Source of the DNA: Methylobacterium sp. Leaf465
GTDB lineage: Bacteria; Pseudomonadota; Alphaproteobacteria; Rhizobiales; Beijerinckiaceae
NCBI RefSeq assembly: GCF_001424705.1
Contig: NZ_LMRA01000007.1
Span: forward strand, 161,033 to 225,032
Length of the DNA: 64,000 nucleotides
Reading direction: 5' to 3'
The notes under the pieces are model-generated. The model had not been told where the DNA came from, made no database searches, and saw nothing but the letters and a program-made list of their open reading frames with translations. Shown piece after piece: positions 54,380 through 57,818 of the stretch (position 1 is the stretch's first letter; each line of letters opens with the position of its first letter). A program made the translations under genes and the position numbers.

Positions 54380-54408
54380 TTGTCAAGCGGGCCCTCAGCG
54401 GCTAGGTA
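54380..54408 (+). promoter_or_regulatory. Likely sigma-70 promoter of the leuA transcript
   Basis: TTGTCA at 54380-54385 and TAGGTA at 54403-54408 are spaced exactly 17 bases apart. The pair lies about 65 bases upstream of the leader peptide. Match to consensus is partial. Confidence 0.5.
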
Positions 54409-54472
54409 AACCGCCTTCGCAAGCGTTCGCGCGCCGCCGCGGTGCGCCCTTGCCTCTCGGGAGAGACGAGCC

Positions 54473-54574
54473 TTGGCCAGCGCCGGCTCCACGCGCAGCA
54501 CGACCGACGCCGCCTTCGCGGCCGTCCGGTCGCGCGCGTCTCTCGCCGCCCTGCTTCTCCTTATCCGCCCCTGA
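54473..54574 (+). CDS. leuL: leuA leader peptide (33 residues, Leu-rich end)
   Basis: A short ORF starts at TTG after GGGAGAG with 7 bases spacing. Its end reads SLAALLLLIRP, with four consecutive Leu codons (CTG CTT CTC CTT) followed by Ile, just before the TGA. The stop codon lies within a strong hairpin. Leader peptides of this sort sense leucyl-tRNA in other proteobacteria. There is no protein-level conservation to check here. Confidence 0.65.
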   Translation: MASAGSTRSTTDAAFAAVRSRASLAALLLLIRP

Positions 54575-54610
54575 GGGCCGTCCGGGCGCGTGCGCCTGGG
54601 CTCTCAGGGG
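54568..54610 (+). promoter_or_regulatory. Attenuator-type hairpin overlapping the leader stop
   Basis: CCCCTGAGGGCC pairs with GGCTCTCAGGGG (12 bp, one G-T pair), and the stem continues inward with CGGGCGC/GCGCCTG after a 3-base bulge. The leader TGA is inside the 5' arm. No T-run follows, so it may act as a pause or antiterminator hairpin. A weaker stem lies at 54626-54659. Confidence 0.6.
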
Positions 54611-54718
54611 AGTGCAGTTTGCGAAGGTCGGCGCCCGTCCACCGGCGCTTGCCCGGACCCCTCGATTTCCCGATGCCGCGTCCCCGGTTCTGGACCGCGT
54701 TCCGACAGGATACCCAGC

Positions 54719-56296
54719 ATGACGACCTCCCCGACTCCGGCGCCCGAAGCCCGCGCGAAGGACCGCGTTCTCATCTTCGACACCACCCTGCGCGACGGCG
54801 AGCAGTGCCCCGGTGCCACCATGACCCTCGACGAGAAGCTCGCGGTCGCCGAACTCCTCGATACCATGGGCGTCGACATCATTGAGGCGGGTTTCCCCAT
54901 CGCGTCGAACGGCGATTTCGCGGCGGTCTCCGAGATTGCCCGGCGCGTCAAGCGCGCCACCGTCGCGGGTCTCGCCCGCGCGATTCCCGCCGACATCGCC
55001 CGGGCCGGCGAGGCGGTGCGCCAGGCCAGGCGCGGCCGTATCCACACCTTCGTGTCGACCTCGCCGATCCACCTCGCGCACCAGATGCGCAAGTCCGAGG
55101 ATGAGGTGGTGGAGATCATCCTGAAGACGGTGTCCCAGGCCCGCGACCTCGTCGAGGACGTGGAATGGTCGGCCATGGACGCCACCCGCACGCCGATCGA
55201 CTATCTCTGCCGCTGCGTCGAGGCGGCGATCCGTTCGGGCGCCACCACCATCAACCTGCCCGACACCGTGGGCTACGCCACACCGGACGAGTACCGCCGG
55301 ATGTTCCAGGACGTCCGGAACCGGGTGCCGAACGCCGACAAAGCGATCTTCTCGGTGCATTGCCACGACGATCTGGGTCTCGCCATCGCCAATTCCCTGG
55401 CCGGCATCGAGGGCGGCGCGCGGCAGGTGGAGTGCACCATCAACGGCATCGGCGAGCGGGCCGGCAACGCTGCTTTGGAGGAGATCGTCATGGCGATCCG
55501 TACCCGCGGCGACGTCATGCCCTTTGAGACCGGCATCGAGACCACGATGCTCACCCGCGCCTCGAAGCTCGTTAGCCATGCGACGAACTTTCCCGTGCAG
55601 TACAACAAGGCGATTGTCGGTCGGAACGCCTTCGCGCACGAGAGTGGCATCCACCAGGACGGCATGCTCAAGCACACGGAGACCTACGAGATCATGACTC
55701 CGGCTTCGGTCGGCGTTGCCAAGACCTCGCTCGTCATGGGCAAGCATTCGGGCCGGGCCGCCTTCCGCGCGAAGCTGGACGAACTCGGCCTCGTGCTGAG
55801 CGATAACCAGATGCAGGACGTATTCGAGCGCTTCAAGGCGTTGGCCGACCGCAAGAAGCACGTCTACGACGAGGACATCGAGGCCCTGGTCGACGAGAAC
55901 CTCGCCACGGCGCATGACCGGATCCGCCTCGTCTCCCTGTCGGTGATCGCGGGCACCCGCGGCCCGCAGCGGGCGACCCTGAAGCTCGATATCGCAGGCC
56001 GGATGGTCACCGAGGAGGCCGTCGGAAACGGCCCGGTCGACGCCGTATTCAACGCGATTCAGGCTCTCGTGCCGCATCAGGCCGACCTCGAACTCTATCA
56101 GGTCCACGCGGTCACCGAGGGCACGGATGCCCAGGCCGAGGTCTCGGTGCGCCTCAAGAGCGGCGAGCGCAGTGTGACCGCTCGCGGCGCCGACCCCGAC
56201 ACCCTCGTCGCTTCGGCTCGTGCTTACCTCTCGGCCCTCAATAAGCTCGAAGCCTGGGCGGAGCGCCTGCATGCCCAGAGCCCGGCCGCGGTTTAG
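54719..56296 (+). CDS. leuA: 2-isopropylmalate synthase
   Basis: LeuA condenses acetyl-CoA with 2-oxoisovalerate, the first step of leucine synthesis. The 525 residues contain the catalytic TIM barrel (IFDTTLRDGEQCPGATMT, HCHDDLGLAIANSLAG with the metal-binding HxH, NGIGERAGNAALEEIVM) and a C-terminal regulatory domain (AHDRIRLVSLSVIAGTRGPQ) that binds leucine. The ATG lies 109 bases after the leader hairpin. A strong terminator follows. Confidence 0.97.
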   Translation: MTTSPTPAPEARAKDRVLIFDTTLRDGEQCPGATMTLDEKLAVAELLDTMGVDIIEAGFPIASNGDFAAVSEIARRVKRATVAGLARAIPADIARAGEAVRQARRGRIHTFVSTSPIHLAHQMRKSEDEVVEIILKTVSQARDLVEDVEWSAMDATRTPIDYLCRCVEAAIRSGATTINLPDTVGYATPDEYRRMFQDVRNRVPNADKAIFSVHCHDDLGLAIANSLAGIEGGARQVECTINGIGERAGNAALEEIVMAIRTRGDVMPFETGIETTMLTRASKLVSHATNFPVQYNKAIVGRNAFAHESGIHQDGMLKHTETYEIMTPASVGVAKTSLVMGKHSGRAAFRAKLDELGLVLSDNQMQDVFERFKALADRKKHVYDEDIEALVDENLATAHDRIRLVSLSVIAGTRGPQRATLKLDIAGRMVTEEAVGNGPVDAVFNAIQALVPHQADLELYQVHAVTEGTDAQAEVSVRLKSGERSVTARGADPDTLVASARAYLSALNKLEAWAERLHAQSPAAV

Positions 56297-56399: not shown

Positions 56400-56475
<76 letters not shown>

Positions 56476-56512
56476 ATCATCTCAGGCACTTAGCAGCAGA
56501 TCTCAGATAAGA

Positions 56513-56553
56513 CGCTTCCCGGCAAACAGCATTGGGAAGCGCATGGGAAGCGC
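56513..56553. repeat. Repeats next to the tRNA gene
   Basis: TGGGAAGCGC occurs twice (56533 and 56544, 11-base period). An inverted copy CGCTTCCC is at 56513-56520. Placement just outside the tRNA suggests arm-type sites for a recombinase or an attachment-site remnant. Confidence 0.5.
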
Positions 56554-56580
56554 GAGTGTACCTGCCACTCGATCTCCGTT

Positions 56581-56790
56581 CTAGACGCGGTCGCGATCCT
56601 GGTCGTTTCGGTTAAGCCGGACGACACAGCCAACGTCCTCTGCGCGGGCGCTGCGGTCGGGCTCATCAAGCATCGCCACGATCCGGTCGACTACATCGAG
56701 AGCGAGCTCGGCCAAGCGCTCGAACTCCTCACGGGGGATCTGCCGAGCGGGCGCCTGACGGCTGGGAGGGAATTGAAAGACGTTGCTCAT
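56581..56790 (-). CDS. Small island protein
   Basis: A 69-residue protein starting MSNVFQFPPSRQAPARQ, with a helical Leu/Glu/Asp-rich centre (EFERLAELALDVVDRIVAML). Its ATG overlaps the stop of the 186-residue gene (ATGA). No function is recognised; it belongs to the leftward island operon. Confidence 0.65.
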   Translation of the reverse strand: MSNVFQFPPSRQAPARQIPREEFERLAELALDVVDRIVAMLDEPDRSARAEDVGCVVRLNRNDQDRDRV

Positions 56791-57347
56791 GCTGAAGCCG
56801 GTTCCTTGACGTCAATGCGCCCTCGAACAAGATCAACGCCGTAAAAAAGCACTGCGATCTCATGCACTAATTCGTCGGGATCGATCAGTTCCAGATCGAA
56901 GAGTATTGTCTTAGCTGCCGCGCCTTCCAGTGTTCTAGCTGGCCTTTTCCTAAGTGGGCCAAGGATGCGCCAAATCTCTTTGTGGTTACGATCTAGCTTT
57001 TGGCTTGCTGCGTGGAAGCCTGTCTCAATAACAATCTTCCTCCGCTTTTTATCGTATGCTTTCGCCATGCTCATATCGATCGTCCAATCAGGACGATCTC
57101 CTATTTGCCGTTCAATGATGGAGGTACTTAGTTTCCGCAGCCTGTGAAACTCTGATTCAAGCTTCACGGTTTCCGCTAACATTGGACGAACTTGATCAGC
57201 GGCAGCAATCAACACAGCGTCGGGATGATGCTTTGCGATCTTGGAACGGATCACGCGAGATGCCGAGGCTTTCGTGGCTGCGGTACGCTCGGCCAACGAA
57301 AGGCTAGCTTCCGATCCCCGCGGGGGAGGACGGCGAACTGCGTTCAT
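56787..57347 (-). CDS. Hypothetical island protein
   Basis: A 186-residue, basic, largely helical protein (RTAATKASASRVIRSKIAKH, AYDKKRRKIVIETGFHAAS). Base composition is more AT-rich than in the chromosomal genes, consistent with transfer. No family is recognised. It is coupled to the 69-residue gene downstream and follows a small membrane ORF. Confidence 0.7.
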   Translation of the reverse strand: MNAVRRPPPRGSEASLSLAERTAATKASASRVIRSKIAKHHPDAVLIAAADQVRPMLAETVKLESEFHRLRKLSTSIIERQIGDRPDWTIDMSMAKAYDKKRRKIVIETGFHAASQKLDRNHKEIWRILGPLRKRPARTLEGAAAKTILFDLELIDPDELVHEIAVLFYGVDLVRGRIDVKEPASA

Positions 57348-57371
57348 AGCAATGCTCCTGACGGTTGAGGC

Positions 57372-57473
57372 TCAAAGGGGGAGGATGCCGTAGGCAGCGA
57401 CGCCGCCGACGATCAGGATGAAGGCCGCCAGCAACTCGCCGGCTGAGTTCAAGACGTGAAGGGTGGTAGGCAT
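57372..57473 (-). CDS. Very small membrane protein
   Basis: A 33-residue ORF (MPTTLHVLNSAGELLAAFIL) that is one predicted membrane helix. It is the first ORF leftward of the divergent operators and 24 bases before the 186-residue gene. The size makes it uncertain, but the sequence is a clean single helix. Confidence 0.5.
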   Translation of the reverse strand: MPTTLHVLNSAGELLAAFILIVGGVAAYGILPL

Positions 57474-57487
57474 ACTGCGCGTTCCAC

Positions 57488-57514
57488 GTTTTTCGTTGAT
57501 GCATAACGATATCC
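57488..57514. promoter_or_regulatory. Operator O1 of the XRE regulator
   Basis: GTTTTTCGT and ACGATATCC flank a 9-base spacer. It lies just upstream of the leftward small membrane ORF. Outside this, TTCCACG and CGTGGAA extend the symmetry. The right arm is identical to that of O2. Confidence 0.65.
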
Positions 57515-57536
57515 GTGGAAACCAAGGCTTGTCAAC

Positions 57537-57563
57537 GGTTATCGTGGATGCGAAACGATATCC
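57537..57563. promoter_or_regulatory. Operator O2 of the XRE regulator
   Basis: GGTTATCGT and ACGATATCC are near-perfect inverted arms (8 of 9 positions) around a 9-base spacer. It ends 15 bases before the regulator start, next to its ribosome-binding site, so binding would repress the regulator's own gene. O1 and O2 share 20 of 22 bases in GATGC..AACGATATCCGTGGA. Confidence 0.7.
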
Positions 57564-57578
57564 GTGGAGAACTGGCCG

Positions 57579-57818
57579 ATGGCACTTACACCTGAGCAGT
57601 CGCGCGCGGCGCGGGGTCTCTTGGACTGGCCGCAAACTGAACTCGCGAAGGCAGCAGACCTGAGCGAGAGCACCGTGCGCGATTTTGAGAAGGGCCGGCG
57701 TGTGCCCAGCGTGAACAACCTCAAGGCGCTGAGAGCCGCGCTTGAGGAGGCCGGGATCATCTTCATCCCATCCAATGGCGAAGGCGCAGGCGTGCGCCTC
57801 CGGAAGCAGCCGGTATGA
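57579..57818 (+). CDS. XRE-type helix-turn-helix regulator
   Basis: A 79-residue single-domain regulator (SRAARGLLDWPQTELAKAAD, LSESTVRDFEKGRRVPSVNN). The HTH fills most of the chain, as in small phage and plasmid repressors. GGAG lies 9 bases before the ATG. It is divergent from the leftward island operon. Confidence 0.88.
   Translation: MALTPEQSRAARGLLDWPQTELAKAADLSESTVRDFEKGRRVPSVNNLKALRAALEEAGIIFIPSNGEGAGVRLRKQPV

Follow-up and report, generated by a model that had tools for sequence, protein, structure and literature searches.

Upstream of leuA in Methylobacterium sp. Leaf465 lies a short leader open reading frame (ORF) that ends in a run of leucine codons and overlaps a conserved hairpin, and outside the genus the Leu run is complementary to the Shine-Dalgarno region of the leuA gene of its own genome. 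This complementarity is specific, not universal, and its genome-specific character is what is new here. We conclude that the element is a very widespread variant of a known, poorly understood kind of leucine control. On balance, and with some reserve, we favor a model in which the leader controls leuA translation through pairing between the Leu run and the Shine-Dalgarno region, which a stalled ribosome would open. The element, which would control a core biosynthetic gene, is present in the majority of the order's sampled genomes and in a fair share of the class; it is noteworthy because it is widespread in a well-studied order and yet matches no Rfam family.

The sequence analyzed (the window) is the whole stretch of 64,000 nucleotides in which this leuA lies; the features discussed are collected in Table 1.

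Table 1. Features of the leuA leader region, in window coordinates
Feature	Coordinates	Strand	Basis
Promoter-like TTGTCA-N17-TAGGTA	54380..54408	+	Sequence
GGGAGAG, Shine-Dalgarno-like, for leader ORF	54459..54465	+	Sequence; retained in closely related loci
Small hairpin GAGCC/GGCTC around leader start codon, genus only	54468..54489	+	GAGCC/GGCTC in 90/109, GAGC/GCTC in 11/109 genus loci
Leader ORF, 33 codons, TTG start, TGA stop	54473..54574	+	Sequence; in-frame counterpart in 109/109 genus loci
Leu-codon run CTG CTT CTC CTT	54551..54562	+	Final codon CTT kept across loci
UAUCC, proposed 5' strand of 5-bp lock stem	54562..54566	+	Longest perfect complement to bases just 5' of leuA; weak alone
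Stop-codon hairpin CCCCUGAGGGCC...CUCAGGGG	54568..54610	+	Genus conservation, fold, covariation
leuA Shine-Dalgarno ACAGGA	54705..54710	+	Sequence
GGAUA, proposed 3' strand of lock stem	54708..54712	+	Complementary to UAUCC
leuA, 2-isopropylmalate synthase	54719..56296	+	NCBIfam match, 863.5 bits (cut-off 729)

A preliminary description of this DNA had claimed a 33-codon ORF with a ribosome-binding site and a Leu-rich end, and we found both its coordinates and its sequence as claimed. The ORF closes with CTG CTT CTC CTT ATC CGC CCC TGA, and its stop codon (54572 to 54574), placed inside the stem by the same description, does fall in the left arm of the hairpin. Two further claims held in part: leuA follows, its ATG lying 108 nt 3' of the hairpin by our count instead of the 109 bases given, and the promoter-like pair with 17-base spacing is present in the sequence, but a sigma-70 scan of the leader locus returned 0 promoters and did not report this pair. 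A looser motif, TTGnCn-N16..18-TAnnnW, was present 5' of the leader at 58 of the 108 genus loci, a count made without a chance control. The leader start codon sits within the bulge of the small GAGCC/GGCTC hairpin, which, with its shorter form included, is found in 101 of the 109 genus loci and may set the frequency of leader translation.

Searching 111 genus genomes at the DNA level gave matches in 109, and all of these retain the ORF, the Leu codons, and the hairpin. Distant genus genomes aligned in two blocks, one containing the leader and hairpin and the other the start of leuA, with the intervening stretch unaligned. The in-frame leaders range from 21 to 46 codons, start with TTG or GTG, and end CTT-ANN-NGC-CCC-TGA in every case. 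The left arm of the hairpin, CCCCTGAGGGCC, is identical at all 109 loci; substitutions in the right arm almost always keep the pairing.

Folded alone, the 43 nt of the hairpin form 18 pairs at −33.8 kcal/mol. This energy does not stand out from that of shuffled sequence (z = −1.49; 15 of 200 shuffles were as good) and is unremarkable for such GC-rich DNA, so the case for the hairpin rests on comparison. We used an alignment of 97 order- and class-level sequences, four of them from the genus, which had been fitted to our first model of the structure and hence favors that structure; in it, both partners have changed at 14 of the 17 pairs, and 94.3% of cells are paired. Offsetting the partner by 1 to 3 columns lowered pairing to between 27.5% and 54.7%, and none of 500 shuffles matched the observed pairing and two-sided changes. 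Outside the genus even the stop codon varies (TGA in 94, TAG in 6, and TAA in 5 of 105 loci), with matching letters in the opposite arm, and the sequence of the upper hairpin is not conserved. Judged by sequence comparison, the hairpin is a real RNA structure.

We followed the element beyond the genus with two covariance models. The first, built from 94 distinct genus sequences, matched 215 of 248 genomes and 38 of 43 genera in a family sample (E ≤ 0.1), 193 of 249 genomes and 93 of 111 genera in an order sample (E ≤ 0.01), and 37 of 240 genomes in a class sample, each sample including some genus genomes. The second, built from the 97 sequences, matched 76 of 289 genomes in a class sample and 45 of 299 in a phylum sample whose class make-up is not given; all 45 belong to Alphaproteobacteria. 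The source genome holds one strong match and two weak ones (E = 0.8 and 1.2), which are the element's own reverse strand and one other place, and in a record of Methylobacterium bullatum the element reaches a model score equal to that of the window (73.6 bits). A pattern scan of one genome per species (84,980 species) found at least 119 stretches. We take the 80 of 119 listed with titles to be alphaproteobacterial from their names, one of them being labeled only Proteobacteria. Among 15 genomes without a model match that we reexamined, 4 have an orthologous leuA (63 to 76% identity), and the element is present in two of these (L395 and L396) and absent from two (L393 and L394); 9 others have only distant leuA relatives (29 to 34% identity at best), and 2 have none.

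Of 143 loci collected (L110 to L252), 111 outside the genus were tested, the rest being genus members or repeats of represented genera, and a leuA-type gene lies downstream of the element in all 111, as leuA does in 117 of the 119 listed pattern matches. At four loci (L148, L158, L159, and L197), the element precedes a paralogue only 24 to 27% identical to the leuA of the window.

Searching the whole window against Rfam 15 at the gathering score returned a tRNA only, and at E values up to 10 the region from 54400 to 54730 gave only two unrelated weak matches. Nor did the part of the literature that we searched yield a report of the element in Alphaproteobacteria. The 2004 survey of proteobacterial attenuators by Vitreschak et al. 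reportedly names alphaproteobacterial ilvIH, not leuA, in its abstract. The portions consulted of four other papers (PMC10117765, PMC4117421, PMC4833913, and PMC3766115) contained no alphaproteobacterial leuA leader; that of PMC4117421 mentions an ilv leader in Caulobacter, and leuA leaders in Corynebacterium and Mycobacterium are reported in the parts seen of PMC4046766 and PMC3526491.

The last Leu codon of the leader lies at a fixed spacing from the hairpin. The final Leu codon is CTT at all 108 genus loci with a usable leuA start, while CTT is absent from the leuA Leu codons of the same 108 loci, many of which hold only the first part of the gene. Outside the genus the final codon is CTT at 101 of 105 loci and CTA at the other 4, and CTT makes up 5.1% of leuA Leu codons. 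The near-invariant CUUA also suggested a programmed frameshift at CTT-A; we rejected this idea because, at the 111 loci compared, the +1 and −1 frames first close at widely varying positions with respect to leuA.

We tested the Leu run for complementarity to the leuA Shine-Dalgarno region. One genus locus of 109 (L075) and 6 of the 111 others lacked a usable leuA start and were omitted, leaving 108 and 105. In the 105 genomes outside the genus, the duplex with the genome's own partner came to −10.92 kcal/mol, compared to −9.03 kcal/mol with permuted partners (z = −8.5; 0 of 1,000 permutations as good). Control leader windows ending at least 30 bases before the hairpin gave z scores of −0.9 to 0.5, three windows with ends at −24, −18, and −12, which stop short of the run or reach its upstream edge, gave −1.4, −3.4, and −3.8, and two windows after the hairpin gave +3.1 and +0.9. 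When the third bases of the CTN codons were redrawn from the same codon slot, none of 300 draws was as good; the third codon bases of the Leu run covary with the leuA Shine-Dalgarno region outside the genus. Perfect runs of at least 8 occur in 21 of 105 own-genome pairs and in 4.5% of crossed pairs. Among the leaders with a strongly complementary run are those of L219 and L169.

The signal recurred in 101 further genomes (z = −5.7, 0 of 1,000; −30 window, −2.7; farther windows, −1.0 to 0.5), which are the 119 listed pattern loci minus 2 without leuA, 2 without a start, 13 identical to earlier windows, and 1 outside the distance limit. It also recurred in 85 genomes with leuA identity below 80% (z = −6.4, 0 of 2,000; −30 window, −2.0; others, −0.4 to −0.5). 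On a per-genome basis, 57 of 85 nonredundant genomes outside the genus fall on the expected side of the test. A scan of 15 by 11 windows (165 pairs) in 99 genomes contained a single spot beyond −3, formed by two neighboring Leu-run windows against bases −21 to −9 before leuA (−3.3 and −3.5), and showed no pairing signal between the hairpin and either the Shine-Dalgarno region or the stretch after it.

Within the genus the pairing test was not clean. Of six genus clusters folded with RNAalifold, four showed a predicted pairing between the Leu run and the Shine-Dalgarno region; the largest cluster pairs UUACCC with GGGUAA. The Leu window gave a z of −4.5, which is not separable from the controls (−60 window, −4.4; −30 window, +3.5), and the pairing was weaker than for shuffled runs (−9.66 versus −10.31). 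Folding with a ribosome masking either the stop or the Leu codons gave no uniform change in Shine-Dalgarno accessibility: with the stop masked, the site was less open than with the Leu codons masked at 39 of 108 genus loci and more open at 23, and outside the genus the counts were 42 and 23 of 105.

The comparison supports translational attenuation because the leader is conserved, the spacing fixed, the hairpin covarying, and the complementarity genome specific, and this is the simplest reading of the Leu codons, the fixed hairpin distance, and the specific complementarity taken together. According to this model, the leader would be translated, and an unoccupied Leu run would close leuA by pairing, over the stop-codon hairpin, with the Shine-Dalgarno region of that gene; the hairpin would bring the two strands together. 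Leucine shortage would leave too little charged tRNA-Leu, so that the ribosome would slow on the Leu codons, with CTT, rare in leuA, probably acting as a sensitive codon. A ribosome held on the run would then break the pairing and free the leuA ribosome-binding site, and translation would respond. Against the model stand the 5-bp stem of the window, the failed control within the genus, the count of only 57 in 85 genomes on the expected side, the deviating windows just before the run and at −30, and the lack of a uniform accessibility change under a masked ribosome. The preliminary description had remarked that the element may act on translation, a suggestion that the pairing in other Alphaproteobacteria supports, and it had staked its reading beforehand in part on conservation of the Leu run and stem in relatives; both are kept, and the stem covaries.

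The principal alternative, which we consider unlikely, is a transcription attenuator that lacks an antiterminator: the hairpin would terminate transcription weakly unless a ribosome stalled on the Leu codons covered the CCCC at the hairpin base, or else termination by Rho would follow farther downstream. A scan for T-run terminators at the leader locus gave 0, in line with the earlier observation that the hairpin has no T-run, and no T-run was found in hairpin tails outside the genus; the element is therefore not a standard terminator. Positions +2 to +8 after the hairpin are nonetheless enriched in T within the genus (277 of 756, versus 14.2% in the interval), with 175 of 735, versus 15.2%, outside it, and this enrichment, like the fixed spacing between Leu run and hairpin, speaks for the alternative, which leaves the complementarity between the Leu run and the Shine-Dalgarno region unexplained. 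The ribosome-mediated control first proposed is thus partly supported: deep conservation and a covarying hairpin favor a Leu-codon leader of this kind, but a transcription attenuator is unsupported outside the genus; within the genus the T-enriched tail would be compatible with one.

A comparable arrangement has been described in Actinobacteria. In the LEU element, a leader run of Leu codons pairs with the leuA Shine-Dalgarno region, and a pseudoknot or alternative hairpin lies between the paired strands (Seliverstov et al. 2005, PMC1262725). Our element shares the position upstream of leuA (111/111 loci outside the genus and 117 of the 119 pattern loci listed), the leader ORF with a Leu-codon run, and the plan of a structured stretch between the run and the Shine-Dalgarno region. 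It differs in that its stop codon lies in the outer hairpin arm and its outer stem, CCCC/GGGG, is nearly invariant. The counterpart of the LEU base stem is seen as a class-wide statistical signal; the stem is only 5 bp in the window, and the signal is not separable from controls in the genus. We found no own-genome signal between the hairpin and downstream windows that would correspond to the pseudoknot. The leuA types are also distant, that of the window being 27% identical to the type nearest the actinobacterial one.

In five actinobacterial records, we found a Leu run and a hairpin at the same spacing upstream of leuA in four: Nonomuraea (CTCCTTCTTAGCTG; second model, 25.5 bits, E = 4.6e-5), Microbacterium (CTTCTTCTTAGCTG; 18.8 bits, E = 0.0014), Nocardia (CTTCTTCTCGGCCG; 11.9 bits, E = 0.047), and, with the hairpin read by eye, Tsukamurella (CTTCTCCTCGGTTG; 9.9 bits, E = 0.13). 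The fifth, a plasmid-borne Streptomyces leuA, showed no run and hairpin in the stretch read. The Microbacterium run pairs with bases before leuA at −15.3 kcal/mol. Common descent with the LEU element is plausible; given that the plan is the same, descent is unproven, and the pseudoknot was not recovered, we describe our element as a variant that works in the same way as the LEU element and stop short of counting it as a member.

The 2005 authors proposed a regulatory protein for the LEU element, and the Streptomyces data that they cite, in which changes to leucine codons contradict the prediction of classical attenuation (PMC1262725), count against the translational-attenuation model. That our element is likewise a protein-binding site, with the leader peptide secondary, seems to us quite improbable: the left arm of the hairpin is invariant in the genus beyond what pairing alone needs, and the 2005 paper argues for a protein, but outside the genus it is the Leu run and CTT that are conserved and not the sequence of the upper hairpin.

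More tentatively, and with somewhat less than even confidence, we suggest that Alphaproteobacteria and Actinobacteria share one ancient leucine switch in which the sensing Leu codons are themselves the locking RNA strand. If so, sensor and lock would be the same nucleotides, which would also explain the paradoxical Streptomyces results. The idea that the Leu codons are the lock offers a simple, testable answer to how the actinobacterial element works, since the two roles of these codons can be told apart by synonymous substitutions.

TnaC is the model for an arrest peptide that stalls at a Pro-stop end. A similar peptide sensing free leucine is highly improbable here. In its favor, the last leader residue is Pro at all 108 genus loci and at 103 of the 105 others; against it, the residue before Pro varies (R, C, S, G, N, or H), the Pro codon also belongs to the hairpin base, and stalling in response to high leucine would come when the need for leuA is lowest.

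With the enteric leu attenuator, which we take to be Rfam family RF00512, the element shares a leader with Leu codons preceding a leu gene and the ribosome as sensor; unlike it, the element has no T-run terminator and no alternative antiterminator that we found, and the Rfam search gave no RF00512 match at the leader locus. In attenuators of the ermC type, which control the translation of resistance genes, a stalled leader ribosome frees a sequestered ribosome-binding site. The same release is predicted here, but the stall would come from missing charged tRNA-Leu, and the sensing codons would themselves be the sequestering strand.

Several minor observations are worth recording. Three loci (L301, titled Caulobacteraceae, L361, and L363) keep the end from CTT to the hairpin, with CAG CGG GGG replacing the Leu run and CCCCCGC before leuA; pairing may persist there where the Leu codons have been lost. 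A Sinorhizobium sp. K101 record (Rhizobiaceae; L422, 12-120) has a leuA of another type and an upstream ORF with CTT CTT CTT CTC GGC CTT, whose CUUCUC might base-pair with a GAGAAG immediately 5' of leuA (one record, read by eye); the order-level model scores it at only 9.9 bits. Finally, the window stretch from 56400 to 57818, 3' of leuA, holds a tRNA gene (Rfam match; anticodon CTT by eye) followed by small ORFs, of which that at 57564 to 57818 looks helix-turn-helix-like by eye, and is possibly an island adjoining the tRNA.
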